From positions 1 to 64,000 of the forward strand of contig CAMDBI010000021.1 in NCBI GenBank assembly GCA_945889005.1: a stretch of 64,000 bases of DNA, in the 5' to 3' direction. A program made the position numbers and the translations under genes. Positions 34,463 through 63,982 of this stretch are shown here, piece by piece (the first letter of the stretch is position 1; every line of letters begins with the position of its first letter). The notes under the pieces are model-generated. The model was given only the letters and a program-made list of their open reading frames with translations, was not told the origin of the DNA and ran no database searches. Origin of the DNA: Bacteroides fragilis (GTDB lineage Bacteria > Bacteroidota > Bacteroidia > Bacteroidales > DTGW01).

Positions 34463-37400
34463 TTACACTCCATTTTCTTTAAAATTTTTCAAATTAATAA
34501 ACTCACTAGGAGAAACTCCAAATTGTTTTTTAAATGATTTTGTAAAGTAGTGGTGCGAGTTAAAACCAACGGCAAAACCAACTTCATTTACCTTGTATTT
34601 ACCATCTTTCATTAGGGCTATTGCATGCTTAAGTCTTACATACCTAATAAACTCAGTTGCCGATTGGTCGGTCAATGCCTTTAGCTTCCTATGCAAATGA
34701 GTGCGGCTAATATTTAATTTCTCAGCCAATAATTCAACAGAAAACTGCACATCAAGCATATTATCTTCTGTAATTTTTGTTGCTTTAATTACAAACTTTT
34801 TATCCAAACTCTCAGACGATATTTTCTCTTCCCAATTTGCCTCATGCGAACTAAATAGCTGTCGAAGCTCATTTCGTGATTTTAGCAAATTATGAATTTG
34901 AACTATTAGCAGTTCGTCATTAAATGGTTTTGAAACATAAGCATCTGCACCTCTTGATATTCCTTTTATTCGATCTTTTATGGTTTCAAGGGCGGTTAAA
35001 AGAATTACAGGAATGTGAGATGTTCTAATATCGGTTTTAAGCTTTTGGCACAATTCAATACCATCCATTATAGGCATCATGATGTCCGAAATAATTATGT
35101 CCGGAGACAAAGTTAGCGCCTGTTCAAAAGCAATTTCCCCATTGTTGGCTTTAACTACAATATAATATTCACTTAAAATATTTCTAATGTATGTTTGAAG
35201 TTCAAGATTATCTTCAACCACTAGCACGGTTATGTTTTTATTCACATACTGTTCTGCTTCAAACTTATCGGCTATAGCATTTTCTATCACCGATATTTGA
35301 TTGGTCTTACTTATTGTACGAGTTGAATTTGCAACCTCAGTTTGGTTAACCGGCAAATAAATTTTAAAAGTAGTTCCACTCCCTTCATTGGAGTTTACGG
35401 CAATACAGCCATGGTGCAATTGCACATATCTGTCTGCAATTGACAAGCCAATGCCAGTACCTCCCGATTTATTATGATTACCAATAAAATAACTGTCAAA
35501 TATATTTGGCAATATATTTTGAGGAATCCCATAACCGTTATCAGAAACTGTTATAGATACATAATGCCCATTATTAACTTCTCCGGTTACAAACGAAAAA
35601 CAATCGCCACATTGAAAATTATCGTTGATTTCTTCTTTCTGCACTTTCACAAAAATGACACCTTTTTTAGGAGTGTTTTTGAACGCATTCGATAGTAAAT
35701 TATAAAGTACCTTATCAAGTTTGTCAGTATCAAAATCAATATTAAAACATTCGATATCTGCTTGAAATTGATAATCAATCGATTGTTGCTCTGCCAAAAA
35801 CTTGTAAACTGAAAAAATATTGTGAATAAAGGATACAACATCATCTTTAACCGGCTGTAGCTTTATATTGCCAGTTTCTGCTTTTCGGAAATCTAGGAAC
35901 TGATTCACGAGATGCAACATACGATTGGTATTATTGCTTATTAAGTTGAGCAAATAAACCGATTCTGGTTTCGTTTCTACTCTCAAAAGTTTGTCGAGCG
36001 GACCACGTATGAGCGTAAGCGGGGTACGAAATTCATGCGATATATTGGTAAAAAACTGAAGTTTCATTTGATGAATCTGCTCGTTTGACTGATTTTTTAC
36101 TTTTTCAACTTCAACTTCAGCAATTAGTTTATGTTTGTTTATCAATAACCTTCTATACCAAAATATGCCGTAAACAATAATAAAAACATATACAGTATAA
36201 GCATACCAGCTAAACCACCATGGAGGTGTAATTCTTATCTTGATTTTCGTTGGATTATTGTTCCATACTCCGCTATTATTACTTGCTTTAACTTCAAAGG
36301 TATACAAACCAGGTGGCAGGTTATAAAAATCTACATTTCCTAACCAATCTGCAAACATCCAATTGTCTGTATAGCCAACTAGACGATATTTAAATTGGTT
36401 TTTCTTCGAATTAATATAATTATTGTTATTAATTCGAAACCCAATGTTGTTTTGTTTATAATTCAATTTGATAAAGGTGGTTGTCGAAACCGGTTCACTT
36501 AATATATCGCTTTTGTCATTTGGCATAACAATCTTATTATTAACCATCAAATCAACAACATGAACCTTTGGCTCCAATGGATTTTTATAAATTCTTTGAG
36601 GTGAAAATCGAATAAGCCCATTTGAACCCCCAAAAAACAATTCCTGCCCTTTCTTTATAGACGCAGATGTAGTTAATAAACTAATATTAAAATTGTCATT
36701 ACCTGAATAACTTTGAAGTTCATAGGAATAGGGATTAAACTTGTATAATCCATTTTCGGTTGCTAACCAAAAATTTTGTTCTGTATCGGTAGTAATGGAG
36801 AATATTTCGTTTCCCGTAATTCCTTCGTTTAAAATAAAATGTTCTGCTTCTAAAGTTTTTACATTTATTTTGTTAAGCCCATAACCATTGGTTCCTACCC
36901 ATATATTGCCAGATGTATCGCCGGCTATACTATATATAAAATCGCCCGAAATACTTTTGGGATTATCTTTGTGATGAAAAAAGCGGATAAACTCAGATGA
37001 TCCTTTTTTCATAAGGTTGACACCTTTCTCAGTGGCAAACCACAGGTTATTGGATTTGTCAAGGTAGATTTGGCGCACATTATTACTGGATATCGAATGA
37101 ATATTCAGTGGGTCATGATAGAATTCTTTGAATTCCTTTGATGAGAAATCATAAAAATACACACCTTTCGGGTAATTACAAACCCATAAACCATCTATTG
37201 TTGGCAGCAAGTAATATGCCTGTATTCCTTCAGCAAAGGAATGTTTCAGTTTAAAAAATACGCCGCTATTCTTTTTTTTATAAAAAACCCCATCGTTATG
37301 AGTACCTGCCCATAAGGTTTCGTCTTCATCATAGGCTAAGCTTTTTATATTTTTTATGTCATCATTATTGTAGTAGACTGGCAACTGGTCGAATGTATTG

Positions 37401-38542
37401 GTGTTTAGGTCAAATATATTGATACCTCCGTTCTCAGTTCCTATAAGTACCTCATTTTTATTAGGTGTTCCTACTATGCAGCCTATATAATTGTCGTTTA
37501 TTGAATTATTTGACGACGAAACTGAATAATGTTGAAATTGGTTATTGTAAATACTATGAAAACACAATCCGCCTTTCCATGTTCCAACCCATATATTATT
37601 CTGTGAATCTTTGTACAATGACCAAATAGAATGATGGGGAATTAAAGGATACCTGTTTTTTTTAATTATATATTTTACCTCGAAGTCTTCTATTACAGCA
37701 ATGCCTTCGAAGGTTGCCACCCACACTGAATTATCTTTCACTTTAATAATATCTCTCGAATAGTTATGCGGCAGTCTTTTCTTTTCAGAAGAACTTTCTT
37801 TGTTAAATTGGTGCTTTATGTTACCATCCATTGATAAACAAATAACTCCTTCATGGTTAAAACTAATCCAAACATTTGTGTTATCGAAAAGAACAGAGTA
37901 TATTTGATAAGCAGGAATTTTTGCAAATGGTTTAAATTTGTTCTCATCACTTCTTTTAACATATATTTCCCCATCGGTATAAAATAACCAAATTGAATTG
38001 TCTTTTGGATTGTATTCAAGTTTACTATTTCTGGTTTGTTTTTCAACGGTATATGTCTGCACCGTTGCATTGTCTAAATCTATAGTACCAAAATCCTGAC
38101 CATTCCTAAACCAAAAAGTGTGGTTCTTATCTTCAAAAAAATCAATTATTTCGGTTTCAATTATACGACCAGCCTGATCCTTTAATGTAAGTCGTCTAAA
38201 ATTTCCGCTTTGCAAATTATATTGGCATATTCCTTTGTTGGTGCTTATCCACAACCTACCATAAGTGTCTTTATAAATATACTGTATATTGTTCGAAGGA
38301 ATAGTGGTCGAATCTTCTCTTATATTTTTAAATTGTTTTATTTCAACAGCATTGTAATTGTATAATCCATTTTTTGTCCCAAACCATATAACTCCGGTGT
38401 TATCTTCTGCTATACATCTTATCTCTGAATTTACATATCCTCCTTCAGGAGTTACTCTTGAAAATGAATAGTAATGTTCTGAAAAAGGAAATAAATGTTG
38501 TAGAAAAACTAATGAAATTAAAATAGTAATATAATATTTCAT
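34463..38542 (-). CDS. Hybrid two-component system sensor/regulator (HTCS)
   Basis: This 1359-residue protein combines sensor kinase and response regulator and typically controls a neighbouring polysaccharide utilization locus. After a signal peptide come two-bladed-propeller-type Reg_prop repeats (many VWFGTKNGLY- and IWVGTWKGG-like units, residues about 35-670), a Y_Y_Y domain (about 687-764), one membrane helix (about 780-803), a HisKA domain with ISHEFRTPLTL (His near 833), a HATPase domain with NLLSNAFKNTP and GTGIGLS, a receiver domain (LVVEDN ... DIIISDIMMP, about 1100-1215) and an AraC-type helix-turn-helix (about 1254-1357). The periplasmic propeller probably binds an oligosaccharide. 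It is divergent from the TonB-dependent receptor gene. Confidence 0.95.
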   Translation of the reverse strand: MKYYITILISLVFLQHLFPFSEHYYSFSRVTPEGGYVNSEIRCIAEDNTGVIWFGTKNGLYNYNAVEIKQFKNIREDSTTIPSNNIQYIYKDTYGRLWISTNKGICQYNLQSGNFRRLTLKDQAGRIIETEIIDFFEDKNHTFWFRNGQDFGTIDLDNATVQTYTVEKQTRNSKLEYNPKDNSIWLFYTDGEIYVKRSDENKFKPFAKIPAYQIYSVLFDNTNVWISFNHEGVICLSMDGNIKHQFNKESSSEKKRLPHNYSRDIIKVKDNSVWVATFEGIAVIEDFEVKYIIKKNRYPLIPHHSIWSLYKDSQNNIWVGTWKGGLCFHSIYNNQFQHYSVSSSNNSINDNYIGCIVGTPNKNEVLIGTENGGINIFDLNTNTFDQLPVYYNNDDIKNIKSLAYDEDETLWAGTHNDGVFYKKKNSGVFFKLKHSFAEGIQAYYLLPTIDGLWVCNYPKGVYFYDFSSKEFKEFYHDPLNIHSISSNNVRQIYLDKSNNLWFATEKGVNLMKKGSSEFIRFFHHKDNPKSISGDFIYSIAGDTSGNIWVGTNGYGLNKINVKTLEAEHFILNEGITGNEIFSITTDTEQNFWLATENGLYKFNPYSYELQSYSGNDNFNISLLTTSASIKKGQELFFGGSNGLIRFSPQRIYKNPLEPKVHVVDLMVNNKIVMPNDKSDILSEPVSTTTFIKLNYKQNNIGFRINNNNYINSKKNQFKYRLVGYTDNWMFADWLGNVDFYNLPPGLYTFEVKASNNSGVWNNNPTKIKIRITPPWWFSWYAYTVYVFIIVYGIFWYRRLLINKHKLIAEVEVEKVKNQSNEQIHQMKLQFFTNISHEFRTPLTLIRGPLDKLLRVETKPESVYLLNLISNNTNRMLHLVNQFLDFRKAETGNIKLQPVKDDVVSFIHNIFSVYKFLAEQQSIDYQFQADIECFNIDFDTDKLDKVLYNLLSNAFKNTPKKGVIFVKVQKEEINDNFQCGDCFSFVTGEVNNGHYVSITVSDNGYGIPQNILPNIFDSYFIGNHNKSGGTGIGLSIADRYVQLHHGCIAVNSNEGSGTTFKIYLPVNQTEVANSTRTISKTNQISVIENAIADKFEAEQYVNKNITVLVVEDNLELQTYIRNILSEYYIVVKANNGEIAFEQALTLSPDIIISDIMMPIMDGIELCQKLKTDIRTSHIPVILLTALETIKDRIKGISRGADAYVSKPFNDELLIVQIHNLLKSRNELRQLFSSHEANWEEKISSESLDKKFVIKATKITEDNMLDVQFSVELLAEKLNISRTHLHRKLKALTDQSATEFIRYVRLKHAIALMKDGKYKVNEVGFAVGFNSHHYFTKSFKKQFGVSPSEFINLKNFKENGV

Positions 38543-39247: not shown

Positions 39248-42091
39248 ATGAAGATAATTTTAACACTTTTATGTACTGTATTTTTAAGTACTGCCATTGT
39301 TAGCAAGTCAATGGCACAACAAAATTCCTGGATATCAGGAACAATTACTGAGGCCAACACAAATATTCCACTTCCTGGCGCCACTGTTTTCATAAAGGAA
39401 TATAGTTTAGGTACTGTAACAGATTACAATGGAGCTTATAACCTTAAGAACGTTCCGGCAGGAAAACATTTGGTAAGAATATCATACCTGGGTTACAAAA
39501 ATCAGGAACTTGAAATTGAAACCGAAGCCGGACAGAAAAAACAGTTAAATATTGTGCTCGAGTCCGATGTTGAAAACCTTGAGGAAGTGGTGGTAACAAC
39601 TCAGGTAAAAGGCCAAATAGGTGCAATTAATCAACAATTGTCGGCCGACCAAATGAAGAATGTTGTTTCAGCTGAACGAATTAAGGATGTCCCCGATGCA
39701 AATGCTTCTGAATCAATTGCCCGTTTGCCGGGTATTTCTCTTCGACGCGATGGAGGTGAAGGTACAAATGTAAATATCAGAGGTTTGTCGCCCGAGTTTA
39801 ATAAAATTACAATTAACGGGGTTACAGTTCCATCTACCGGAGAAAATACACGTTCGAGCGATTTGAGCATGATTTCATCTGAAAACCTCAGTGGAATAGA
39901 AGTATTTAAATCTATTACCCCCGATATGGATGGGGATGCCATTGGCGGAACTGTAAATATGAAAATTGCTAAAGCCAAAGACACTCCCGAACGCTATGCC
40001 AGAGCATATGGTGGCTATAATGTTCAGGAAAACGATTACAGGCAATATAAGGCTTCAGGAAGATGGAGTCAGCGTATACTCAAAAAGAAAATTGGAATTC
40101 AGGCTTCATTTAATACAGAAAAGAAAAACAGGAGTAGCGAAGGCTTAACTGCAGGTTATGAACTGGGAGCAATTTCAAACACAGGCAAAATACCATTATT
40201 ACTCAACAACGTTAGACTAAATGATTTTGAAGAGTATAGAGTAAGATCTGGTGGCAATATAATACTTGATTATTCGGTTAATGAAAATTTGGAGTTCATG
40301 CTCCTAAACACTTACAACTCAACCAATCGCAATGTATTTGAAAGAACTTTTAGTTTCGATAAGGACAATTCGTATCCAACCTCTGTTATTGCAAACCCTG
40401 AGCACAATCTCAATTTGCTAAGCAATGCGCTGAGTTCAGAGTATAATGCAGGTTTTGCTAAATTCGAATGGACATTATCTCGAAGCAAAATTGTAAGTGA
40501 AAAACTTCATGACAACGCGGTTGATTTTAGACATTATGGCGCTCAAATGCCTTTAGGTGTTGATTATGAAACTATAAGCCCCATTGATTTAATTAGCAGC
40601 GTGGTACCCGACAGTAATAGTAATATATATCAACCCAGATATGAGGATAATAAAGTAAACGAATTAAACTACATGGCCGATATGAATATTACTATTCCTT
40701 ACAGATTAGGAGAAATGCTTACCGGTGAGATGAAATTTGGGGGACGATTAAAATTAAATAACAGGGATAGAATTTCAAATGTACCAGCATTAGATTTACA
40801 AGTTGGACAACTAAGGTTTCCGATTACAGACTATTTTGACAACAATTATGATCAAGGAAATTTTCTTGATGGACAGACAAATTTTGACATTTTACTCGAC
40901 CCATCAAAAACCAATGATTTTTATAACCAATATTCTTCAATATATAGTGATAGCGAATTCGCGAGAGAAACCTATACTACAGAAGACCAGATTGGTGCTA
41001 CTTATTTAATGACAAAATTAAAATATGGCAAAATAATTACACTTATTCCCGGAATTAGGTATGAGCAATTTAATGGTACATATACTGGAGAATATAAATT
41101 CCAAACCGGTTTTAGGACCGGTGTAACAGAGGACACTACAACAAATATTGTTCATAAAGACTGGTTGCCAATGGTAAATATGATTGTACGACCAACAGAT
41201 TGGTTCAATGTGCGTTTAGCAGTTACAAAAACATTGGTAAGACCCTCGTATAACGATTTAATTCCCAGATTATTTCTAGACTTAAATCAATCAAACGATG
41301 GTGTCGACCAAGGCAACCCTGATCTTCAGCCTACTCGTTCGTGGAATTACGATGCCTACCTTACTTTTAATCATAAGTATATTGGTTTATTTACAATTGG
41401 CGGTTTCTACAAAGATCTCAAAGGGGTAATTATAGATGTAGAACGTCGTATCAGCTCCGTTAGGGAATTGGATAGCCTTGGTTTATCAAATCCTTTTTAT
41501 GTTTTTCAAGGTCGAAATTTATCTTATATAGACAGACAAGTTACAAGACCCGAAAACACCGGAAACTCAAACGTAAAGGGTGTTGAATTGGAATGGCAAA
41601 CCAACTTAAGGTATTTACCTTCTCCATTTAATGGAGTTGTATTGAGTGCAAACTATACTAGGCTATGGAGTAAAACCAATTATTCTTATTTCCTTGTCGA
41701 AAATGTATATGACCCAACACGAAGACCTCCTTTTTACCAGAAATACACTACAGGTTTGCGCGAAGGTAGAGTAAGAGGTCAGAGCGACCATATTATTAAC
41801 TTTTCTGTTGGTTACGACTTTAAAGGATTCTCATCACGCGTATCAATGACTTATCAGGGAGAAAGTTTAAATTCTGTTAGCACGCAAGCAGAAAGAGACA
41901 GGTACAATAATGGATGGGTTAGATGGGATCTAACCATAAAACAAAATATTGGAAAACACATTAGTATCTATTTCAACGGCTCGAACTTAAATAATCAGTA
42001 CGATAGCGGACATCAGGGTTACGACTCACGTCCTACAGAACTTGAATATTATGGCGAGCAGCTAGAATTAGGTCTTCAAGTAAATTTCTAA
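39248..42091 (+). CDS. TonB-dependent receptor of Xanthomonas/Caulobacter type
   Basis: This 947-residue outer-membrane transporter has a signal peptide (MKIILTLLCTVFLSTAIVSKSMAQ), a carboxypeptidase-regulatory-like domain (GTITEANTNIPLPGATV, about 33-115), a plug (about 125-240) and a 22-strand barrel ending LGLQVNF. The plug reads DVPDANASESIARLPGIS and RDGGEGTNVNIRGLSPEFN, wording characteristic of the Xanthomonas/Caulobacter TonB-receptor group rather than of SusC. No SusD gene follows, as it would with SusC. It probably imports oligosaccharides released by the enzymes downstream. It is the first gene of the plus-strand locus. Confidence 0.9.
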   Translation: MKIILTLLCTVFLSTAIVSKSMAQQNSWISGTITEANTNIPLPGATVFIKEYSLGTVTDYNGAYNLKNVPAGKHLVRISYLGYKNQELEIETEAGQKKQLNIVLESDVENLEEVVVTTQVKGQIGAINQQLSADQMKNVVSAERIKDVPDANASESIARLPGISLRRDGGEGTNVNIRGLSPEFNKITINGVTVPSTGENTRSSDLSMISSENLSGIEVFKSITPDMDGDAIGGTVNMKIAKAKDTPERYARAYGGYNVQENDYRQYKASGRWSQRILKKKIGIQASFNTEKKNRSSEGLTAGYELGAISNTGKIPLLLNNVRLNDFEEYRVRSGGNIILDYSVNENLEFMLLNTYNSTNRNVFERTFSFDKDNSYPTSVIANPEHNLNLLSNALSSEYNAGFAKFEWTLSRSKIVSEKLHDNAVDFRHYGAQMPLGVDYETISPIDLISSVVPDSNSNIYQPRYEDNKVNELNYMADMNITIPYRLGEMLTGEMKFGGRLKLNNRDRISNVPALDLQVGQLRFPITDYFDNNYDQGNFLDGQTNFDILLDPSKTNDFYNQYSSIYSDSEFARETYTTEDQIGATYLMTKLKYGKIITLIPGIRYEQFNGTYTGEYKFQTGFRTGVTEDTTTNIVHKDWLPMVNMIVRPTDWFNVRLAVTKTLVRPSYNDLIPRLFLDLNQSNDGVDQGNPDLQPTRSWNYDAYLTFNHKYIGLFTIGGFYKDLKGVIIDVERRISSVRELDSLGLSNPFYVFQGRNLSYIDRQVTRPENTGNSNVKGVELEWQTNLRYLPSPFNGVVLSANYTRLWSKTNYSYFLVENVYDPTRRPPFYQKYTTGLREGRVRGQSDHIINFSVGYDFKGFSSRVSMTYQGESLNSVSTQAERDRYNNGWVRWDLTIKQNIGKHISIYFNGSNLNNQYDSGHQGYDSRPTELEYYGEQLELGLQVNF

Positions 42092-42130
42092 AATACATTA
42101 TACTTTTTTATTAACTAAATATTAAATATT

Positions 42131-43765
42131 ATGAATTTGTTTACAAAAACTATTGCATCGTTGATATTTGTATCAATGTCAGCAAATTTGATGTCTGCTG
42201 AGATCAAGCCTGATCCTGCTGTCTCAAACTCTTTAGTTGATGCTATCGTAGGTGCTCAGGCTGGAGATGTTATTATTCTTCAAAGAGGTGCTTATTATTA
42301 CCATCAAACAACGATTGAAATTTCGGTTCCGCTTACTATTAAAGCAGATGCTACAAACCCAGAGTTGCCAAAACCTATTGTTTCCTTGCTTGTAAGGACA
42401 GACAATACAACACCTACCACTAATTTTACGGTAAAGTCGGATCTGGTATGCGAAAATATTCATTTTCATGCCGGTGTTTCAGGTCGTCCTGGTTATCACG
42501 ACGATGTACGAAGATGCATGGAATGGAGTACTACTGCTAATATGAGGGCCGAATTTAGGGGTTGTATTATTCAAGACTACGATGCCCGTACAATGGTACT
42601 GGAAGCTCCTGATATGAAGTTTTTTGCCTACGATTGCGTTTGGCTAAACGATCATAAAACACCTGGCCCATCTGAAGGCAGAAGTATCGACTTAAGGCAA
42701 TTTGGACCTGATTCGCTGGTTATTCAAAATAGCACCTTTGTAAATTCTGGCAACCGTTGGATCAGACACATGCCAAGTTCTGGCGTAATTGACCCTATCA
42801 ATTATGCAAAAATCGACCATTGTACCTTTGTAAATGCTGCCGGATACCATCCTCCTTTCGATTTTGGTACTATTGAAAACCTTCAGTTTACCAATAATAT
42901 CGTGCAAAACAACGGAATTATGGGTACCGATTTTACCGTCCAGTCTGCAGCAGTTAACAAATTAGGTATAATTGCCGATCCTGCCAATTATAATTCAACT
43001 GATAAAAAATTAATGCCTTACCGTGTTTCGGAAGTTTATTACGACCGTGCCGATGGTATTGTGATTTTGGGATGTCATGGAGTTGATTCTATAGGTACCA
43101 AAATTACAATGCATAACAACAACATTTACAATATTCCTGAAATTGCAGCTAAATTAGCCCAAAACGACACAGTATCACCTGTAGCTGTTTGGTGTACTCA
43201 ATTTAAAAAATCTATTCAAGGCGATACTACTAAAGCTTATTCTCAAGAAGCTATTAAATTTGTAAAAGGTTCTGAATTAGTAGGCGATGGATTCAATTGG
43301 ATTGACAGTATTATGAATCGCTATATTGGATATTGGGACAAAAACCAGTATTTCGTTATGCCTTGGCCAAATTTAGAAGACATCGATTTTAATTATGGTA
43401 CAACTGCGGCAGCTTATACAGCCGGTGTAGACGGTTACCCATTAGGCGATTTAAACTGGTATCCTTATTATAAATGTAAATGGGCTGGTGGTACTAATTG
43501 CGTAGATACAAAAACAAAAGTTTATAATAGCGATATAGTATCGGTTTATCCAAATCCGGCGTCTAATTATTTACAAATTAAGATTAACGGTAACAAACCT
43601 GCTACTTTCAAAATGTTTAACCTGTTTGGCAACTTGGTATACTCAAGTAAGGTTGTTAATAGTTCTTCTTTTGACTTAAAAGCAGCAAATATCGGACAAG
43701 GCTTATACTTATACACTGTTGAAACAGAAGACAATTATTACTCTGGCAAATTAATAGTTAAATAG
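42131..43765 (+). CDS. Beta-helix surface protein with T9SS sorting domain
   Basis: The 544-residue protein has a signal peptide (to about SANLMSA) and a DAIVGAQAGDVIILQRGAYY opening (near 37-56), the style of parallel beta-helix proteins such as PL6-like lyases and DUF4957 proteins. Strand repeats with small residues and Asn (CENIHFHAG, FRGCIIQDYDA, VIQNSTFVNSG, KIDHCTFVNAAG) support a beta-helix up to about residue 300. The end (SVYPNPASNYLQIKI ... GLYLYTVE) is a T9SS sorting domain. It may be a polysaccharide lyase or a surface glycan-binding protein taking the place of SusD; catalytic residues cannot be assigned. It lies 39 bp after the receptor gene. Confidence 0.72.
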   Translation: MNLFTKTIASLIFVSMSANLMSAEIKPDPAVSNSLVDAIVGAQAGDVIILQRGAYYYHQTTIEISVPLTIKADATNPELPKPIVSLLVRTDNTTPTTNFTVKSDLVCENIHFHAGVSGRPGYHDDVRRCMEWSTTANMRAEFRGCIIQDYDARTMVLEAPDMKFFAYDCVWLNDHKTPGPSEGRSIDLRQFGPDSLVIQNSTFVNSGNRWIRHMPSSGVIDPINYAKIDHCTFVNAAGYHPPFDFGTIENLQFTNNIVQNNGIMGTDFTVQSAAVNKLGIIADPANYNSTDKKLMPYRVSEVYYDRADGIVILGCHGVDSIGTKITMHNNNIYNIPEIAAKLAQNDTVSPVAVWCTQFKKSIQGDTTKAYSQEAIKFVKGSELVGDGFNWIDSIMNRYIGYWDKNQYFVMPWPNLEDIDFNYGTTAAAYTAGVDGYPLGDLNWYPYYKCKWAGGTNCVDTKTKVYNSDIVSVYPNPASNYLQIKINGNKPATFKMFNLFGNLVYSSKVVNSSSFDLKAANIGQGLYLYTVETEDNYYSGKLIVK

Positions 43766-43783
43766 TTAAGTTAAGGATTTTTT

Positions 43784-44129: not shown

Positions 44130-46205
44130 ATGAAAAAGTTCATCCTGTTTGCCGTATTCATGAATTTGTTTTATAACATTATCGCTCAGGATAATAAAAC
44201 AACACTACTTCCGGGTACAACAATTTATCTAAACGACACAAATTCTGCTCCAATTAATAAGGCTCTTAATATATTGCAACGCGATTTATTAGCCGTGTTA
44301 GGAAAAAAATCTCCTGTAAAATTATTAGATAACAAATTAGCAATTATTAAATCGATAATTATTGTTAATAATGAAACAGCCAAAGGCTACAAAGGTTTTG
44401 ATTTAAAAGGTTTTGAAAGACATCAAATATATATAAACAACTCAAATATAGTATTACATGGTACTGATGAGTTAGGCACGATTTTTGCTATTTATACTTT
44501 TAGCGAACAATTTTTAGGCATTAAGCCATTATGGTTTTGGGCATCGTTAAAACCAATTTCAAAAGACAACATTTCTATTTCTAATTCATACAAGTTCGAT
44601 TCGGGCGAACCTTATGTAAAATATCGCGCCTGGTTTCCAAACGATCAGGATATGTTTGGTCCATGGAGAGACCTTTCGAATTTTAACAATGAAATTTTAT
44701 ACGAAACACTGCTAAGATTAAAACTAAATACAATTGAAGTTGAAAACACCATTGATTATACTAAGAAAGGTTCTGTTACAGAAAGAGCTAAGTTAATTGA
44801 CCAATATGGACTTATTATGACTTTTCATCATCACTCTCCGATGAACTCAAAATCAAGCGATTGGGAGACTTATTGGAAAATGATGGGAAAAACTGGCAAA
44901 CCCGAATTCAAACTAAGCAATATGTCGGAGCTTGAAGAGTTTTGGCGCTATAATGTAAAAACACTTATTGAAAATGGAATTGATAAAATAATTTGGGGTG
45001 TTAATTTCAGGGGAAATGGCGACCGGCCTTTCTGGCTATCATATAGCGATGCACCCGAAAGCATGGAAGCCAGAGCAGGAATAATTAATAAAGTTGTAAA
45101 CCGACAAATTGAAATATTAAAAGAAGAAAACAAGGCTTATCTACCTATGACTCGAATGATTTTTTATGACGAAATATCAGACCTTTTAGCTGAAGGATTA
45201 TTGAAACCACCTGCTGAAGAAAACCTTATTTGGAATTATGTTGCAGCACGTCGCGACCATTTCCCAAATGATGATATCCGAAATCAGACTTTTGACAATT
45301 CAATAAATTTAGGTTATTACATGAACCTTCAGTTTACATCAACAGGTTCGCATTTGATACAAGCAGAAGGTCCCTGGAAGATGGAAAAAAATTACCGGTA
45401 TGTTGACTCTAAAAACGATAAACCTGTCATTTTTTCTGTAGCAAATTCGGGAAACAACCGCGAACATTTATTGACGCTTAGTGCAAATGCCGAAATGTTA
45501 TGGAATTTTAAATTATACAATACCAATAGTTTTCTAAAACAGTTTTGCGGCGTCTATTATGGCAACGAACAGGCAGAAAACATTGCCGGCTTATACAAAC
45601 AATTTTTTTATGCATATTGGAACCCCAAAAAGAGCGATATCGAAGGCTTCGACCGACAATATATATTCCACGATTTGAGATATAAGCAAGCGGTTAAGCA
45701 GCTATCGGCCAAATTTCTAGATACCATTAATTTAAATCCCCTTAAGGATTATTCATGGGAACAACTTCCAAATAGGGCATTTCGGATTGTACCTGCAGAC
45801 AATGGGGCCGAAAACCAGGTTGATGCATTGCTAAATGGCACTAAAGCATCGTACGAACGATTTCAAAAAGTTGTTCAGCAGGCCGATAGCACGCTTCAAT
45901 ACATACATCCAGAACATCAGACTTTCTTTAACGACAATTTACGTTACCCTGCCTATTTTATGATGCATTTAAATGATGCTGTTTATCATTATTTTATGGC
46001 CTATAAGACCGAAAATGTTCATGAAAAAGCAAAGTTGGTACGCAAATCGCACTATGCAGCCGAGAAAGCAAGATTAAGCCTTTATCAAATGGCGCATGGC
46101 GATTTCGAAACTTGGTATGCTCACGAACATATATTCGATATTGATGATTTTGTTAACAGAATTCAAAAAACATACAATTCGCTTCAGGAAACATTATTGT
46201 ATTAA
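44130..46205 (+). CDS. GH115-like alpha-glucuronidase family protein
   Basis: The 691-residue protein has a signal peptide (to IIAQ) and the GH115 arrangement: an N-terminal alpha/beta domain ending GTDELGTIFAIYTFSEQFLGI (near 112-132), then a TIM barrel with RAWFPNDQD and a KIIWGVNFRGNGD motif (near 285-297), comparable with the RGxGD motif of GH115. GH115 enzymes remove glucuronic or 4-O-methyl-glucuronic acid from xylan or other glucuronate-bearing polymers. It is shorter than usual members (about 800-950), lacking the C-terminal module. It would be periplasmic, with no T9SS tail. A 19-bp gap leads to the GH2 gene. Confidence 0.75.
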   Translation: MKKFILFAVFMNLFYNIIAQDNKTTLLPGTTIYLNDTNSAPINKALNILQRDLLAVLGKKSPVKLLDNKLAIIKSIIIVNNETAKGYKGFDLKGFERHQIYINNSNIVLHGTDELGTIFAIYTFSEQFLGIKPLWFWASLKPISKDNISISNSYKFDSGEPYVKYRAWFPNDQDMFGPWRDLSNFNNEILYETLLRLKLNTIEVENTIDYTKKGSVTERAKLIDQYGLIMTFHHHSPMNSKSSDWETYWKMMGKTGKPEFKLSNMSELEEFWRYNVKTLIENGIDKIIWGVNFRGNGDRPFWLSYSDAPESMEARAGIINKVVNRQIEILKEENKAYLPMTRMIFYDEISDLLAEGLLKPPAEENLIWNYVAARRDHFPNDDIRNQTFDNSINLGYYMNLQFTSTGSHLIQAEGPWKMEKNYRYVDSKNDKPVIFSVANSGNNREHLLTLSANAEMLWNFKLYNTNSFLKQFCGVYYGNEQAENIAGLYKQFFYAYWNPKKSDIEGFDRQYIFHDLRYKQAVKQLSAKFLDTINLNPLKDYSWEQLPNRAFRIVPADNGAENQVDALLNGTKASYERFQKVVQQADSTLQYIHPEHQTFFNDNLRYPAYFMMHLNDAVYHYFMAYKTENVHEKAKLVRKSHYAAEKARLSLYQMAHGDFETWYAHEHIFDIDDFVNRIQKTYNSLQETLLY

Positions 46206-46224
46206 TTTTTAAAATATTATACGA

Positions 46225-51491: not shown

Positions 51492-51535
51492 AAGTTGCTC
51501 AATTACCTGTATTATGGTTTTTGAGCAACTTTTTT
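51492..51535 (+). terminator. Hairpin terminator after the FN3 protein gene
   Basis: AAGTTGCTCAA (51492-51502) pairs with TTGAGCAACTT (51521-51531), followed by T residues. It precedes the next gene by about 25 bases and rules out the in-frame TTG at 51521 as a start. Confidence 0.8.
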
Positions 51536-51559
51536 ATTATATTAACACAAATTAGTATT

Positions 51560-53089: not shown

Positions 53090-53098
53090 TTTACTGAT

Positions 53099-56180: not shown

Positions 56181-57854
56181 ATGTTAAATATTATAAAAAG
56201 CTGTACGTTTTTGTTATTCTTTTCCTTTTTACATGAATATGTAAACGGGCAGGTTGAAATTTACCAGTTCTCATCTGAAACGAAGAAGGCATCTGATTTT
56301 AAGGTATATGTAAATGACCAGGAAGTATTTGTACACACTGCCCCTGCATCAATTTCTCTAGATCCGCTCAATTTGCAAGGTATGCCTACCCCTGCATTTG
56401 CCAGCTTTGGCTGCAGCGAAACGGTAACTGTAAGAGTAGAGCTCATTGGAGAATCACTAAATTCGGTGGAATTAAGACCCAGATCTAAAGGAATTAGCCC
56501 AACGATTAATGGTTCAGAATGTAGTTTTACAATGTCCAGTATGGACAAAATAATTGTACTGAAAAATGGTGATAAAAACAGAAGACTTTATCTGTTTGCA
56601 AATCCTTTGGAGGTAAACAAACCATCTCCCATCGATTCAAATGTAATTTATTATGCAGCAGGTCAAATATACGATGTAGGTGTTTTAAATACTCAACCTG
56701 GTCAAATTATTTATATCGAAGGAGGTGCCATAGTAAAAGGAAATATTAATGTGTATAATGATAGTAACGTGCAGGTGAAAGGTTTTGGAATTCTGGATGC
56801 GACAGGGAGGAATCCCAACCAAACAATCAGGGTAAATAATAGTCCTAACTTCACCATGGAAGGCATAACGATAGTAAATGAAAACAACTGGACTGTAGGC
56901 ATTTATATTTCGAATAATGTTGCAATTAAGGATGCGAAAATTATAGCCTATAATAACGTATACACAGATGGTCTTGATGTGCTGGGCTCCAGCCATATAT
57001 ACATAAACAATTGTTTTATTACCAGTGGAGATGATTGCATTTCAATTAAGACCGATAAATGGATTTTCGCTGGCAATGTTAACGATGTAGTTGTTGAAAA
57101 TTGTATACTCTGGAAAGAAAGAAGGGGTAATGCAATGACTATTGGCAAGGAAGTAGGCAAATATAAAGGAAATAGTCACTTAGGTATTAGAGATGTATAT
57201 TTTAGTAATATTGACGTAGCCTATGATGGAACGGTACCTGAGAGTCCATTTGGCAGAGCCGCAATTTCGGTTTACAATGATGGTATGGGGTATGTAAAAA
57301 ATATTAATTGGACAAATATCAATATAGATGAAGCAAAAGAGAATTTAATAAATATTACTTCGGCAGCATCTGCAGAAGCTTTTGTTGATAGTATTAGCGT
57401 GACCAATGTAAACTTAACAGGAGGCGAACGGGTACCATCGATAATTTCCGGATATAATTTCCAGAAAAAAATTGAACATGTTGCGTTTGACAGTCTGATG
57501 ATTCATGGACAGCTTATTCTAAATCATGCTGCAGGAAACTTCACTATAAAAAATGCTGATGAAATTACTTTTGGGCCATCTTCACAAGTTGGTGTATATA
57601 ACACAATTGAAAGCAAAGAACATGTTAAGATATATCCAAATCCGGCAAACAATTTTTTTTATATTGAACCTTTTAGCAATGCAAAAGGTATAGTATTGTT
57701 ATACAGAATTGATGGTGTGGTTGTAAGGAAACAATACATTGAGCAAAAAACCTCCATAAGCACTATAGATCTGGCTCAAGGATTATACCTCTTTAAATAT
57801 TTTTCAGAGAATGGAAAAGTTGTAAAGGCGCAAAACCTTTATATAACTCGCTAA
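56181..57854 (+). CDS. Clan GH-N beta-helix enzyme with T9SS domain, 557 aa
   Basis: The signal peptide ends near YVNGQ. A N-terminal beta-sandwich (about 25-145) is followed by a beta-helix with GGAIVKGNINVY and GFGILDATG, then TDGLDVL near 261 and SGDDCISIK near 281-289, the paired acidic motifs of GH28/GH49. The position of GHG reads GNAMTIG, and the RIK motif is missing. The T9SS sorting domain (IYPNPANNFFYI ... GLYLFKY) closely resembles that of the preceding gene, including VVRKQYI. Expected to be a surface exo- or endo-hydrolase on a uronate- or glucan-type polymer. Confidence 0.8.
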   Translation: MLNIIKSCTFLLFFSFLHEYVNGQVEIYQFSSETKKASDFKVYVNDQEVFVHTAPASISLDPLNLQGMPTPAFASFGCSETVTVRVELIGESLNSVELRPRSKGISPTINGSECSFTMSSMDKIIVLKNGDKNRRLYLFANPLEVNKPSPIDSNVIYYAAGQIYDVGVLNTQPGQIIYIEGGAIVKGNINVYNDSNVQVKGFGILDATGRNPNQTIRVNNSPNFTMEGITIVNENNWTVGIYISNNVAIKDAKIIAYNNVYTDGLDVLGSSHIYINNCFITSGDDCISIKTDKWIFAGNVNDVVVENCILWKERRGNAMTIGKEVGKYKGNSHLGIRDVYFSNIDVAYDGTVPESPFGRAAISVYNDGMGYVKNINWTNINIDEAKENLINITSAASAEAFVDSISVTNVNLTGGERVPSIISGYNFQKKIEHVAFDSLMIHGQLILNHAAGNFTIKNADEITFGPSSQVGVYNTIESKEHVKIYPNPANNFFYIEPFSNAKGIVLLYRIDGVVVRKQYIEQKTSISTIDLAQGLYLFKYFSENGKVVKAQNLYITR

Positions 57855-57883
57855 AGAACTGAAAATATTTAATCATTATGATC

Positions 57884-58005: not shown

Positions 58006-58188
58006 ATTAGTCATTAGTAATTAGTAATTATTTTTGTTAAATACAATCTGACGATTTTTCCGAAACAAAGAATTTCACTTTGAAGTAGATGTATTATGGT
58101 TATAGAGTTTAAAAGTCATAAGTAACACATTTTTCTCACTTAGTGAGTTAAAATATTTTTCAATATTTTTACAATTAACAACTTGAAC

Positions 58189-61100
58189 ATGCGAATTATG
58201 AAAACAAAAGTACGAATGAAGCATTTACCTTTTCTAATGAAGGTTGCAGTATCACTAATAGTATATTTTAATTCAATAAACCTTTATGCCCAATGTGACT
58301 CTACGCTCAGAAATGGCGATTTTGAAGTTGTAAAACTAGATGTTGTTGAGGTATTTAAAAATCAGGCATGTTACGATGTGAATAGTAATTATATTTTGCG
58401 TGTTAACAACCAAGTAGTGCCTTTATTGGAGCACAAATATTACGAATATGTAGGTGCACCAAATATTCATTTAAACGTACTTTTTGCGAGTTTTTATTTT
58501 ACCGATACAGTAATTGTTGAAATTAAAAAAACATCGTCATCCATTGGTACTTACTCTATTAGTCCGTTAAAATTTAATATTACCCCGGAGAAAACCAGTA
58601 ATACTTTAACCTTTGCTATCAATAGTCCAAAACAATTGTATATTGATATTGATGGAACAGAAATATTATTATTTGCCGAGGCAAAACTAACCAATAAGCC
58701 ACAGGAATCAGGAACAGGTATTTTTAATATTACGAGTTATGGTGCCAGTTCAAATAGCAATTATACAGTAAATCAGGCTACTGCTATTCAAAACGCCATT
58801 AACGCTGCCTCTGCTTATGGCATTTCAAATGGCACCAGAGGTACTGTTTATGTTCCTGCCGGGCTATATTATACAACCAATCTCGATTTGAAAGACAGCC
58901 TTAATATTTACCTCGAGGGGGGCGCTGTTATTCGCGGTACAGGCCGATCGGACGATTACGGCACAGGTACAGGCCGATTGTCTATGTTTAATGCTGAAGG
59001 TAGTGCATCAAACTTTATAGAAAATGTAAAAATATACGGCCCCGGCATTATCGATGCCAATGGTGTAGCCACAGCCAAAGTAGATAATATAGCTGATTTG
59101 TACGATAAAATAAACTTACGCAATGGTCATTTACTGAGGTTGATTTCGATGGACTATGTCAAAAATATCGATATTGAAGATGTTATAGCCATGGAAGGTT
59201 CGTCGTGGCAGTTAAGTTTTCATGAGTCGGAAAAAATTAATATTGAACGGGTAAAAGTGATTGGACACCGAACCATGAAATGGAATGATGGCATTGATGT
59301 AAGCGCCTGCAAAAACGTGGTAATACGCGATTGTTTCGCTATTGGCTTCGATGATAATTTCTGCATTAAAGATGATGCGTACCAGGTTTCTGAAAATATT
59401 CTTATTGAAAATGCTGTAGGATATTCGCATTCCCGCACATTTAAAATTGGTTTTCAAGCTGGAGCCGGCGTTCGTAATTGCACCATAAGAAATGTAGACG
59501 CTGTTCGTTCGCGCCATGCGTGCCATTTAATGCAGTCGACCGGAACAGGAGCCACCTGGGAGGATATTTTAATTGAAAACTATGTTGTTGAAAAACTGCA
59601 ACCATCAGATCCTTTAGATAGTAGTGAACCTGCACCTTTTCGGATTCAATTGTCGCTCGATAATGGTATTGCTAAAAATATCGCTGTAAAAAATTTCACC
59701 TTCTTAGGAGATAATTATGCCAGTTCGCCTTACGATAGCGACCTGGATCAGGAAGGCATAAATACTACCATTAATAATATTGCATTTACCAATTTCAAAG
59801 TAGGTGGTAATTATGCAACAAATAATGTTCAGGCTTATTTGGATGTGAACACGGCTACAAATATTACTTTTAACACCGATCAGGCCAATAAGGCGCCGGT
59901 ATACAGCAATGTACCGGTTTCGGCAATTTTGGGCAGCAATGCTACACCTAAATATTGGCAACTGACCGGTTCAGGCGCTTTTGAAGACGCTACAGCCGGG
60001 CGCAGTGGCCGTGCAATTAGCCTTGAACCACACGCTGGTGGTTCTTATTGGCAACAGCAATTATGCAACCTAAACGTTGGCAGCACCTATTGGTTAAAAG
60101 GTTTTATAAAAACCGAAAATATAAGTGGTGGTTACGCTGCAATGGTGGTTGGGCAATCCGACACTTCGCAAAAGGTTTCAGGCACAACAGGCTGGTCCGA
60201 AGTATCCATTGAGTTTGTTGCTGATGCTCAAACTAAAAATATATTTTGCCTGTTCGATGCCACCAACGGCAAAGCCTTTTTCGATGATATAACTTTTATT
60301 GCAACACCAACCGGGGTGTCTGTTGAGCCTTCAATATTGAGCATTACAAAGGGTGACACTAAACAATTGCGGGCATCGGCCATTCCTGAAAATGGACTGG
60401 ATTTGGGCTATTCATGGCAATCAAACAATCCTTCTGTGGCCTTCGTCGATCAAAACGGCTTGCTTACAGCTATTGCAGCGGGTAATGCCGACATTATAGC
60501 CATTTCGAAATATAACAATAGCTTTTCCGATACCTGTACCGTAAAAGTTCTTGATAAGGTAATTATTAAAAATTACTTTTTGGAAGCCGAAAGCGCATCC
60601 GGACAAACCCTTTTTAGTCCTTTTGAAGTGGTTGATGACAATTCTGCTTCCGGCAAAAAATATATAGTAACAAATTTGAGCAATACTACGGCCAGTAATG
60701 CTATTACAGGTCAGGCAGCTTATACTTTTGAACTGGCTGAAAACACAAACGTTACATTTTCGGTTATTGCCGATTTTCCGGCAGGTGGCGACGATTCTTT
60801 CTTTTATAAAATGGATAATGGATCCTGGCAAACACAGAATGGCCAAACAACCTCTGGGTGGGATACTTTGGAGATAAATGAATTTAATTCATTATCGGCT
60901 GGCACACACACACTTACTTTATTACGACGCGAAAATGGGGCTAAAATCGACAAAGTTTTTTTTAGTACACCTAAAGCAGTTATTATTACAGATTCAGTTG
61001 CGGTTATAGTCCCTGTTGACAAACTAGTGCTTTCGGCAGCAAGCATTTCGCTTGCAAAAGGTCAGTCAGGCACACTTACTACACAAATATTTCCGGCAGA

Positions 61101-61818
61101 TGCTACAATTAAAGCAATAACCTACAGCTCCGGCAGCCCATCGGTTGCTACGGTTAGCCAAAGTGGGCTGGTGACTGCAATTGCAGTGGGCAGCGCAACA
61201 ATTACCGTTACCTCGGCTGCCGATGGAAGCAAAACCGATGTGTGCACGGTTACGGTAACGCCTGCTGTTGTTGCAGTGGACAGCATTAAAATAGCACCGA
61301 AAAGTTTGGCATTGGCGATTGGGCAAACAAGCACCCTGGGCACCACGGTGTACCCGGATGGTGCTACCAATTCAGCTGTTACCTACAGCTCCGGCAGCCC
61401 ATCGGTTGCTACGGTTAGCCAAAGTGGGCTGGTGACTGCAATTGCAGTGGGCAGCGCAACAATTACCGTTACCTCGGCTGCCGATGGAAGCAAAACCGAT
61501 GTGTGCACGGTTACGGTAACAGACCCTGGAACAAACCTGATATTGGATAAATTGAACGAAAGTTTACGAGCATATCCCAATCCGTTTAATAATCAGGTTG
61601 TTGTTACATTTAACACTAAACCAAATTCAAATATAGCCATTACCCTGCACAATGTAACCGGAAAAGAATTAATTATTAATCACTACAAACCCCAAACATT
61701 AGTTAATAATGAGCTTGTATTAAGTACAGCTCATTTACCTGGTGGAGTTTATTTTATAAAAGTAATGGTGGGTACAAATATTAATACAAGTAAAATAATA
61801 AAACTGGTAAAACATTAA
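58189..61818 (+). CDS. Clan GH-N beta-helix enzyme with CBMs, three Big2 modules and T9SS domain
   Basis: I take the ATG at 58189; 58198 (MKTKVRMKHLPF) is equally possible. After a signal peptide (to NLYAQ) come an N-terminal beta-sandwich (about 30-165), a beta-helix (176-560) with WNDGIDVSAC near 365 and GFDDNFCIKDD near 385, a CBM4_9-like domain (587-704), a Big2 module (707-789), a CBM6/35-like domain (794-929), two further Big2 modules (942-1024, 1030-1112) and a T9SS sorting domain (AYPNPFNNQVVVTF, from about 1124). GHG and RIK motifs of polygalacturonase are absent (YSHSRTFKIG occupies that region). The last two Big2 modules share an exact 140-bp DNA repeat. Confidence 0.8.
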   Translation: MRIMKTKVRMKHLPFLMKVAVSLIVYFNSINLYAQCDSTLRNGDFEVVKLDVVEVFKNQACYDVNSNYILRVNNQVVPLLEHKYYEYVGAPNIHLNVLFASFYFTDTVIVEIKKTSSSIGTYSISPLKFNITPEKTSNTLTFAINSPKQLYIDIDGTEILLFAEAKLTNKPQESGTGIFNITSYGASSNSNYTVNQATAIQNAINAASAYGISNGTRGTVYVPAGLYYTTNLDLKDSLNIYLEGGAVIRGTGRSDDYGTGTGRLSMFNAEGSASNFIENVKIYGPGIIDANGVATAKVDNIADLYDKINLRNGHLLRLISMDYVKNIDIEDVIAMEGSSWQLSFHESEKINIERVKVIGHRTMKWNDGIDVSACKNVVIRDCFAIGFDDNFCIKDDAYQVSENILIENAVGYSHSRTFKIGFQAGAGVRNCTIRNVDAVRSRHACHLMQSTGTGATWEDILIENYVVEKLQPSDPLDSSEPAPFRIQLSLDNGIAKNIAVKNFTFLGDNYASSPYDSDLDQEGINTTINNIAFTNFKVGGNYATNNVQAYLDVNTATNITFNTDQANKAPVYSNVPVSAILGSNATPKYWQLTGSGAFEDATAGRSGRAISLEPHAGGSYWQQQLCNLNVGSTYWLKGFIKTENISGGYAAMVVGQSDTSQKVSGTTGWSEVSIEFVADAQTKNIFCLFDATNGKAFFDDITFIATPTGVSVEPSILSITKGDTKQLRASAIPENGLDLGYSWQSNNPSVAFVDQNGLLTAIAAGNADIIAISKYNNSFSDTCTVKVLDKVIIKNYFLEAESASGQTLFSPFEVVDDNSASGKKYIVTNLSNTTASNAITGQAAYTFELAENTNVTFSVIADFPAGGDDSFFYKMDNGSWQTQNGQTTSGWDTLEINEFNSLSAGTHTLTLLRRENGAKIDKVFFSTPKAVIITDSVAVIVPVDKLVLSAASISLAKGQSGTLTTQIFPADATIKAITYSSGSPSVATVSQSGLVTAIAVGSATITVTSAADGSKTDVCTVTVTPAVVAVDSIKIAPKSLALAIGQTSTLGTTVYPDGATNSAVTYSSGSPSVATVSQSGLVTAIAVGSATITVTSAADGSKTDVCTVTVTDPGTNLILDKLNESLRAYPNPFNNQVVVTFNTKPNSNIAITLHNVTGKELIINHYKPQTLVNNELVLSTAHLPGGVYFIKVMVGTNINTSKIIKLVKH
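61120..61259 (+). repeat. 140-bp exact direct repeat, copy A (Big2 module)
   Basis: Identical to 61381-61520; period 261 bp (87 codons, one Big2 module). Confidence 0.95.
61381..61520 (+). repeat. 140-bp exact direct repeat, copy B (Big2 module)
   Basis: Identical to 61120-61259. The 121 bp between the copies differ from the corresponding part of the first module. Confidence 0.95.
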
Positions 61819-61891
61819 GTTATTAAGCGTCAGAATAATAAGGCATTATTGATTGGGCGTTTTAAAAGATGGTATATAATAACCAATAATT

Positions 61892-63982
61892 ATGAAAGTA
61901 GCAGTAAAAAAAAATATAGAACGTAGTATTTTGAATGTCATAATTTTAACAACAATGCTGTTTGTTAGTTTTCAAAATTTATACGCACAGTGCACGGCCG
62001 GCATTAAGAATGCCGGATTCGAAGAAACCGGTAATGTTATAGCGTATCCGGTTCCCGCATGTTATCCAATATCCGACGATTACGTAATTCGTGTGAACGG
62101 AACCAATGTGCCCGTAATAAAGCACGAATACTACCCATATGTAGGAGCAACCAGCAAAGTATTGAATGTATTGCATGCGAGTTTTTATTTCAAAGGCACA
62201 GCTGTGATTGAAATAGAGAAGCAATCTGCTTCAATAAACAGTTTTACTATTAGTCCTAAAAAATATAATATAGCACCAATTGAGCCAGACAGCAAAACCC
62301 TAAAGTTTGCCATTAACGAGCCTAAACACTTGTATATCAACATAAATGACACAGAAATTTTACTGTTTGCCGAAAACATACTCACCAATCAACCTGCAAG
62401 CAGCGGAGTGGGAATTTATAACATTACCAATTACGGGGCAGGCTCAAACAACAACAGCACCGTTAATCAAAAATCAAAAATTCAGGCTGCCATTGATGCT
62501 GCCTCGTCCTATGGAACTCCTTCGGCTCCGGGTACAGTATATGTTCCGGCCGGTGTTTATTACACTACCGATTTAAAATTAAAAGACAATGTAAATCTTT
62601 ATCTCGAAGGAGGCTCAGTATTGCGCGGTACTGGCAATTCTGACAATTATGGATCGGGAACAAGCACAAAAACGGTACTAAGGCTAGATGGTAGTTCAAG
62701 TAACAGAATTGAAAACGTTAAAATATATGGTCCGGGTTTCATTGACGCAAACGGTGTTTCTACCGCTGAAGCTCCTAATGTGCCCGACTTTGACGACAAA
62801 ATAAATGATCGGACCGGTCATAAGATGCGTTGTATTGATGCTGACTATATTCGTAACATTACGGTTGAAGATGTTCTTGTAAGAGAGGGAACTTCCTGGC
62901 AGGTAAGTTTTCATGAAGGTAATGATCTTTCTGTTGAAAGGGTAAAAGTAATTAGCCATCGCATTATGAAGCACAACGACGGTATTGACGTTAGCGCCTG
63001 CCAGGATGTGGTTATCCGCAATTGTTTTGCTCTTGGTTTTGATGATAATTTTTGTATTAAGGATGACCCTTACCAGCCTTCACAAAACATTTTGATTGAA
63101 AATATATTAGGCTATTCACATTCGCGAACATTTAAAATTGGCATGCAGGCTTATAATGCTGCACGTAATTGTACCATTAAAAATGTGGATGTAATAAGGT
63201 CGCGTCAGGCTTGTCATTTGCAGCAAATAAGAGGTGGAAATGCAATTTGGGAAGATATTTTGATTGAAAACTTCACCATTGACTATAACCTTCAGGCTTC
63301 TGACCCTTTTGATATTCGTGAACCAGCACCATTTTGTATAGAACTGGAAATGGATGGTGGTATTGCTCGTAATATAACAGTTAAAAATTTTACATATCTG
63401 GGCGATAATTGGAGCAACTCCGGTTTCGACAGCGATATGGATCAGTTTAGTGGTGTGAATACGGTTATCGACAGTATTTCCTTTGTTAATTTTAAAGTGG
63501 GCGGTAGTTACGCAATTTCACCCGAGTTAGCCAATATGGACACCAACAGAGCTACAAATGTTACTTTTAAAATAGATTTAAATAACCAGGCCCCTGAGTA
63601 CAAAAATGTACCAATTCCCGCTTCAAGCACAACAGATACATGTACAGATAGTGTAACAGACCCTGGTACAAACCTGATATTGGATGAATTGAACGAAAGT
63701 TTACGAGCATATCCCAATCCGTTTAATAATCAGGTTATTGTTGAATTTAACAGAAAAATTCATTCGAATGTACAGATTTATTTACTCGATGTTATGGGTA
63801 AAGCGTTTTTTTATGAACGTTACAAACCCCAAATTTCAGTTAACGACGAATTTAAAATAAATACCTCTCAATTGTCGGGAGGATTGTATTTCCTGATTGT
63901 AATGGATGAGTCAGAAAAAAACATTATTAAAACCATCAGACTAATAAAAAATAATTCAAGAGATACTGCTGAAAAGCTCTAA
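61892..63982 (+). CDS. Clan GH-N beta-helix enzyme with T9SS domain, 696 aa
   Basis: This is a paralogue of the preceding gene: signal peptide to NLYAQ, the same N-terminal sandwich with ACYPISDDYVIRVNG, and a beta-helix with HNDGIDVSAC near 361 and GFDDNFCIKDD near 382. It lacks the CBM and Big2 modules; the helix is joined by DTCTDSVTDPGTNL, which looks like the leftover end of a Big2 module, to a T9SS sorting domain (AYPNPFNNQVIVEF) nearly identical at DNA level to that of the neighbour. GHG and RIK motifs are absent. It probably attacks the same or a related linkage. Confidence 0.8.
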   Translation: MKVAVKKNIERSILNVIILTTMLFVSFQNLYAQCTAGIKNAGFEETGNVIAYPVPACYPISDDYVIRVNGTNVPVIKHEYYPYVGATSKVLNVLHASFYFKGTAVIEIEKQSASINSFTISPKKYNIAPIEPDSKTLKFAINEPKHLYININDTEILLFAENILTNQPASSGVGIYNITNYGAGSNNNSTVNQKSKIQAAIDAASSYGTPSAPGTVYVPAGVYYTTDLKLKDNVNLYLEGGSVLRGTGNSDNYGSGTSTKTVLRLDGSSSNRIENVKIYGPGFIDANGVSTAEAPNVPDFDDKINDRTGHKMRCIDADYIRNITVEDVLVREGTSWQVSFHEGNDLSVERVKVISHRIMKHNDGIDVSACQDVVIRNCFALGFDDNFCIKDDPYQPSQNILIENILGYSHSRTFKIGMQAYNAARNCTIKNVDVIRSRQACHLQQIRGGNAIWEDILIENFTIDYNLQASDPFDIREPAPFCIELEMDGGIARNITVKNFTYLGDNWSNSGFDSDMDQFSGVNTVIDSISFVNFKVGGSYAISPELANMDTNRATNVTFKIDLNNQAPEYKNVPIPASSTTDTCTDSVTDPGTNLILDELNESLRAYPNPFNNQVIVEFNRKIHSNVQIYLLDVMGKAFFYERYKPQISVNDEFKINTSQLSGGLYFLIVMDESEKNIIKTIRLIKNNSRDTAEKL

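Follow-up and report, generated by a model that had tools for sequence, protein, structure and literature searches.

A TonB-dependent receptor and a secreted beta-helix partner in a sugar locus without SusD

We describe a candidate uronate-polysaccharide locus in a Bacteroidota genome (assembly GCA_945889005.1, deposited as Bacteroides fragilis). The locus lies on the first 64,000 nucleotides of contig CAMDBI010000021.1, the stretch that we call the window. Its core is the gene for a TonB-dependent receptor (P0001) and, beginning 39 bp past it, the gene for a secreted right-handed beta-helix protein (P0002) that carries a sorting tail of the type IX secretion system (T9SS). The receptor is of the TonB-Xanth-Caul type and lies outside the SusC family. 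Receptors of this clade are almost always accompanied by such a beta-helix protein, and the two are inherited together. The locus points to a second two-part mode of glycan handling at the cell surface. The reading we favour, with somewhat more confidence than doubt, is a uronate-polysaccharide operon built on an import module other than SusC/SusD: a TonB-Xanth-Caul-type receptor together with a T9SS-exported beta-helix that would capture uronate-rich oligosaccharides.

Results

Receptor class

P0001 matches the TonB-Xanth-Caul model TIGR01782 over its full length (model positions 1-868) with 407 bits, well above the cut-off of 310. In contrast, the SusC model TIGR04056 yields 91 bits against a cut-off of 368 and covers residues 29-219 only. 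The initial annotation, made from the letters of the window alone, had assigned the receptor to a non-SusC group, and the scores agree. All 38 receptor relatives that were scanned match TIGR01782 as well. In a phylogenetic tree the receptors with a beta-helix partner cluster together (support 95), apart from SusC and from five receptors that lack this partner. The AlphaFold2 (AF2) model of the receptor has a predicted local distance difference test score (pLDDT) of 89.6, and its nearest solved folds are BtuB, FhuA and the BtuB1 of BtuB1-BtuG1. No SusC appears among the 50 structural matches listed for the receptor, an observation on which we place no weight.

P0001 is the sole receptor in its own genome above the TIGR01782 cut-off. 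Matching receptors are rare in close relatives (6 of 60 genomes). The window receptor groups with sequences from Neomarinimicrobiota and KSB1 (support 100), with 49% and 46-47% identity, respectively.

Pairing and co-inheritance

We scanned 84,980 species genomes with a receptor alignment and obtained 405 relatives. The 80 best were retained together with their flanks; many of these loci come from metagenome-assembled genomes. The relatives belong to Bacteroidota, Ignavibacteriota, Neomarinimicrobiota (Fidelibacterota), KSB1, Calditrichota, Gemmatimonadota, Cloacimonadota, Rhodothermota, Balneolota and Deferribacterota. Five of the 80 loci were excluded from the pairing test because their sequence stops just behind the receptor gene. 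The 75 testable ones, which represent at least ten phyla, all have a gene of the P0002 family next in line after the receptor. This figure describes the receptor clade, not all TonB-Xanth-Caul receptors: the 80 loci are the top fifth of the matches and were found by motifs from receptors that all have a partner. For the pair, the gene order of the window recurs in other genomes. Seventy pairings follow from a strict rule, and the other five (L064, L074, L075, L077 and L090) appear once overlong or masking open reading frames are corrected. The partner in locus L062 is a weak member of the family. The median gap between receptor and partner is about 50 bp. Among the first four relatives with full neighbourhoods, a P0002 homologue directly followed the receptor in each.

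The reverse search gives a similar picture. With the partner profile as query against 198 Bacteroidota genomes, a receptor C-terminus lies immediately upstream in 27 of 29 loci among the best matches. The two exceptions are a tandem partner copy and a partial match within a 2330-residue protein. Ten genomes tested for copy number carry one to six members of the beta-helix family each. In a Cloacimonadota locus (L065:12892-22886) several family members stand in tandem behind one receptor.

Receptor and partner also share their history. Patristic distances among 69 receptors correlate with those among their partners (r = 0.88, or 0.86 when the T9SS tail is removed), while 5000 random shuffles reach a maximum r of 0.16. 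The nearest neighbour is the same in both trees for 49 of the 69 pairs. In Neomarinimicrobiota, locus L050 holds the receptor (49% identity), the beta-helix (50%), a GH28-type T9SS protein and a GH115 (53%) together, followed by a GH3 (GH, glycoside hydrolase). Because receptor, beta-helix, GH28 and GH115 are again found side by side in this phylum, the cassette has probably moved between phyla as a unit.

Two other receptors of the window's own genome, on contigs C11 and C10, precede a lipoprotein-like beta-helix (PF13229; L047:10728-12014) and a T9SS protein whose fold is unknown (L048:10791-12473), respectively. In Bacteroidota, receptors of the TonB-Xanth-Caul class may generally come with a surface partner.

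The beta-helix partner

The AF2 model of P0002 (pLDDT 81) is a right-handed beta-helix. Its closest fold is the C-terminal domain (residues 426-747) of BcAlyPL6, an alginate lyase of polysaccharide lyase (PL) family 6, with a Z score of 30.2 and a deviation of 2.6 Å over 293 residues. Next come the PL6 C-terminal domains of Patl3640 and AlyGC; the three together span Z scores of 24-30. The likeness extends to sequence: the partner-family profile matches the PL6 C-terminal beta-helix with E 2.7e-14, and in 7dmk it is significant on the C-terminal domain only. PL6 enzymes have their active site in the N-terminal domain; the C-terminal one is proposed to assist substrate access and binding (PMC11381880). 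The PL6 catalytic domain has no Pfam match among 65 partners. Apart from the T9SS tail, which the Pfam scan finds in 63 of the 65, the other matches are Beta_helix (17), DUF4957 (11) and DUF5123 (3).

The family has a ladder of its own, a stacked R184-D187-R189 motif kept in 53 of the 65 partners. R212 and H230 are further motif residues. Such a basic face could suit an acidic glycan, or alternatively it could form a catalytic site.

The signal peptide of P0002 was searched for a lipobox cysteine and holds none; at its other end the protein has a T9SS tail of 41-44 bits, above the cut-offs of PF18962 and TIGR04183.

Search for SusD

No SusD was found in the window, either by Pfam or by a six-frame search with a SusD hidden Markov model (HMM) derived from 16 sequences, including two divergent ones; nor was one found in the 8.5 kb that follow, as far as the end of the contig (72,457). 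A SusC/SusD pair is likewise missing downstream of 64 kb on this contig, and the initial annotation's claim that the locus lacks SusD stands. The same six-frame HMM search over 1.33 Mb of flanks from 80 relatives recovered a single SusD, in locus L109. It lies 3.7 kb from the receptor pair, directly behind a SusC. We therefore reject it as part of the receptor/beta-helix pair: it belongs to its own SusC.

Whole-genome counts show that the receptor/beta-helix module occurs in genomes without any SusD match (two KSB1, one Melioribacter) and also in genomes with 21 to 61 SusDs. Because of the latter, the lack of SusD at the locus is not merely a genome-wide lack. The window's own genome has two SusC genes that score above the cut-off; they lie on other contigs, and a SusD homologue follows each of them. 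The Pfam SusD model gives only one weak match there.

The initial annotation had suggested that the surface beta-helix or fibronectin type III (FN3) proteins might take the role of SusD. The beta-helix half of this idea has gained strength from the near-obligate, co-inherited pairing. The FN3 half we reject, as no homologue of that protein occurs in the flanks of the relatives.

Layout of the locus

The genes of the locus are listed in Table 1. A hybrid two-component system (HTCS) regulator on the minus strand is divergent from a run of ten plus-strand genes that begins with the receptor and ends at 63982; the gap between them is 705 bp. Pfam domains bear out the proposed divergent pair of HTCS and TonB-dependent receptor. 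An HTCS-type regulator and clustered carbohydrate-active enzymes are also what SusC/SusD polysaccharide utilization loci (PULs) have.

Table 1. Genes of the locus, with positions in the window
Feature	Position	Strand	Evidence
HTCS (hybrid two-component sensor/AraC regulator)	34463..38542	-	Pfam Reg_prop, Y_Y_Y, HisKA, HATPase_c, Response_reg, HTH_18
TonB-dependent receptor P0001, TonB-Xanth-Caul type	39248..42091	+	CarboxypepD_reg (N-terminal), plug, barrel; TIGR01782
Partner P0002, secreted right-handed beta-helix, T9SS tail	42131..43765	+	Por_Secre_tail; AF2 fold
GH115 (alpha-glucuronidase family), signal peptide, no T9SS tail	44130..46205	+	PF15979 2.4e-41; PDB GH115 matches
Predicted GH2 exo-uronidase (beta-glucuronidase or beta-galacturonidase), no T9SS tail	46225..48033	+	Pfam GH2; NxK motif YNRKG
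FN3-repeat protein, weak T9SS tail	48062..51472	+	PF18962 E 1.3e-5, under curated cut-off
GH39-like enzyme, likely lipoprotein (LVSC lipobox)	51521..53089	+	PF01229 1e-10; PDB beta-xylosidase, PslG matches
GH28-type beta-helix enzyme, InlB-like repeat domain, T9SS tail	53099..56002	+	Profile searches
GH28, T9SS tail	56181..57854	+	PF00295 5.8e-13; PF18962 6.3e-8
GH28 with Big_2 domains, T9SS tail	58183..61818	+	Profile search
GH28, T9SS tail, close paralogue of the 58183..61818 gene	61892..63982	+	Profile search

Six of the ten plus-strand genes encode T9SS tails (those starting at 42131, 48062, 53099, 56181, 58183 and 61892), the number given in the initial annotation. Five of the tails pass curated cut-offs, and that of the FN3 protein falls just under (25.8 against 27). 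The genome also has the T9SS translocon gene SprA (SprA_N 588 bits, contig C2). Delivery of the enzymes by T9SS, as originally proposed, applies to the GH28s, and beyond the enzymes to the FN3 protein and the beta-helix. It does not apply to GH115, GH2 and the GH39-like enzyme, which have no such tail. Because they lack it, GH115 and GH2 are probably periplasmic.

Some features of individual genes deserve mention. Between its FN3-like domains the FN3 protein has an unassigned unit of some 190 residues, present twice. The last two GH28 genes are close paralogues (840 bits), and the Big_2 domains are extras of the first. The operon extends beyond the window: a gene for an SGNH-like hydrolase follows directly after the last stop, then come an OEP protein, a GH97 and a Reg_prop sensor kinase (contig positions 63985-72154). 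This second sensor kinase of the locus has no receiver or helix-turn-helix domains. An outer-membrane efflux gene (OEP/TolC-type) is an odd member of a sugar operon.

Substrate

Among solved structures, those most closely related to the GH2 enzyme include 6d89, the beta-galacturonidase AqGalA (7vqm) and 6d1n, with glucuronidase-type enzymes represented as well. The GH2 with its NxK motif near AqGalA, the GH115 and the four GH28s together suggest a polysaccharide containing galacturonate or glucuronate. The initial annotation had read the GH115-like and NxK-bearing GH2 enzymes as signs of a glucuronate substrate. Uronate-type enzymes are indeed present, and the qualification concerns the sugar: galacturonate is indicated because of the four GH28s, and the GH2 has AqGalA as a relative.

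The neighbourhoods of the relatives can be read in the same terms. Among 100 proteins encoded after the pair, GH2 (15), GH88 (13), sugar-type regulators (10) and SSF symporters (10) predominate; the GH88s are unsaturated-uronide hydrolases. Upstream of the pair, Reg_prop (HTCS-type) regulators are encoded in 14 of 56 cases and sulfatases in 6. These operon mates, regulators and sulfatases tie the receptor/beta-helix module to glycans, with uronates prominent.

Discussion

In the mechanism we propose, the HTCS would sense a breakdown product and turn the operon on. The four GH28s, the FN3 protein and the beta-helix would reach the cell surface through T9SS, and there the GH28s would cut a polysaccharide containing galacturonate or glucuronate. 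The beta-helix, attached to the surface on or beside the receptor, would hold the acidic chain or oligosaccharide and present it to the receptor, perhaps in physical contact with it and acting like a lid. Its role would thus correspond to that of SusD for SusC, BtuG for BtuB and XusB for XusA. TonB energy would then draw the oligosaccharide, presumably a GH28 product, inward. In the periplasm GH115, GH2, GH39, the SGNH-like hydrolase and GH97 would finish it. That the beta-helix may cap the receptor and bind the ligand is suggested only indirectly, by the pairing and the co-inheritance; the structures are models of single chains.

Several observations weigh against this reading. T9SS cargo is usually anchored to lipopolysaccharide (LPS) or set free; attachment to a receptor would be unusual. 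The R-D-R ladder is absent from 12 of the 65 partners. The specificities of GH2 and GH115 are guesses at the level of the family. Furthermore, a lipoprotein-like phytase (PF02333; L039:13231-14367 and L040:11026-12189) comes after related TonB-Xanth-Caul receptors that lack the beta-helix, possibly forming a receptor/phytase pair for inositol phosphates. Because the phytase adjoins sister receptors, the partner slot can hold an enzyme.

This last point leads to the main rival: the beta-helix may be a surface enzyme, a polysaccharide lyase or hydrolase whose product is the ligand of this receptor clade, and neither a binding protein nor a lid. The phytase occupies the same gene position, and the beta-helix shares its fold class with PL6, PL9, GH28 and tailspike enzymes. 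GH88, which removes the unsaturated uronates made by lyases, is among the commonest operon mates. The conserved R/D/R...R...H ladder would fit an active site, and one review mentions weak lyase activity of the BcAlyPL6 C-terminal domain (PMC8618178). However, Pfam matches no lyase family in the partners: besides generic domains there are only T9SS, Beta_helix, DUF4957 and DUF5123. The PL6 domain that is homologous is the one without the main active site, the ladder is missing from the partners counted above, and the window locus has no GH88. We consider a surface enzyme unlikely, yet more plausible than what follows. The beta-helix could be a classical surface glycan-binding protein that tethers polysaccharide without contact to the receptor, which would import alone, like the carbohydrate TonB receptors of Xanthomonas and Caulobacter. 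The normal linkage of T9SS cargo to LPS favours such a tether, and to our knowledge the proteobacterial TonB-Xanth-Caul-type sugar receptors have no SusD. The functions of those receptors are listed in PMC3400609. But an independent binder is not expected to be the next gene in every testable locus and to track the receptor tree so closely, which makes the tether rather improbable. Very improbable indeed is an ordinary PUL served by a SusC/SusD pair elsewhere in the genome. The two SusC genes with their SusD homologues on other contigs would allow it. Yet the locus has a complete receptor of its own, and related loci occur in genomes without a SusD match (KSB1, Melioribacter). In genomes with 20-60 SusDs, related loci adjoin none, and the sole SusD in the flanks has its own SusC.

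The receptor/beta-helix import module that we prefer resembles SusC/SusD systems in its HTCS regulation, in the dedicated surface-protein gene adjoining that of a TonB receptor, and in the division into surface endo-enzymes and periplasmic exo-enzymes. It differs in that the receptor lies outside the SusC family, the partner is a T9SS beta-helix and not a SusD lipoprotein, and the module reaches genomes in which no SusD was found. Surface partners of TonB receptors other than SusD are known: BtuG (PMC10404256) and XusB (PMC13142918), both lipoproteins. The BtuB-BtuG and XusA-XusB systems of Bacteroides likewise combine a non-SusC TonB receptor with a dedicated surface protein, and BtuB1 is among the nearest solved folds to P0001. 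Their partners, however, are lipoproteins (BtuG a beta-propeller) and their ligands B12 or siderophores, whereas here a T9SS beta-helix stands among glycan enzymes.

The TonB-Xanth-Caul carbohydrate receptors of Xanthomonas and Caulobacter belong to the same family (TIGR01782) and likewise serve sugar loci without SusD. In contrast to them, the receptors described here carry an N-terminal CarboxypepD_reg domain, which is common in Bacteroidota. We know of no T9SS and no beta-helix partner for the Xanthomonas and Caulobacter receptors. From the PL6 alginate lyases, whose C-terminal beta-helix it resembles, the partner differs in having no PL6 catalytic domain, in being a separate, receptor-linked protein, and in its own R-D-R ladder.

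In the open-access literature on the receptor/beta-helix pair, on DUF4957 and DUF5123, and on TonB-Xanth-Caul in Bacteroidota, we found no account of this pair. The evidence points to a two-part system that is undescribed in this sense. A broader proposal, which we hold tentatively and a little short of even belief, is that it represents a second glycan pedal-bin class across the Fibrobacterota-Chlorobiota-Bacteroidota (FCB) superphylum. A T9SS beta-helix would be the lid on a TonB-Xanth-Caul-type receptor, serving as importer in phyla poor in or free of SusD and passed between phyla with its enzymes.

PUL finding relies on SusC/SusD pairs. Hence loci like this one escape notice, and a genome that lacks SusD seems to have little capacity for glycan import. 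Near-obligate as it is, the receptor/beta-helix pair offers an easy way to search for such loci in Bacteroidota, Ignavibacteria, KSB1, Neomarinimicrobiota and others. A structural question arises as well, namely whether a protein exported by T9SS can serve as lid for a TonB receptor.

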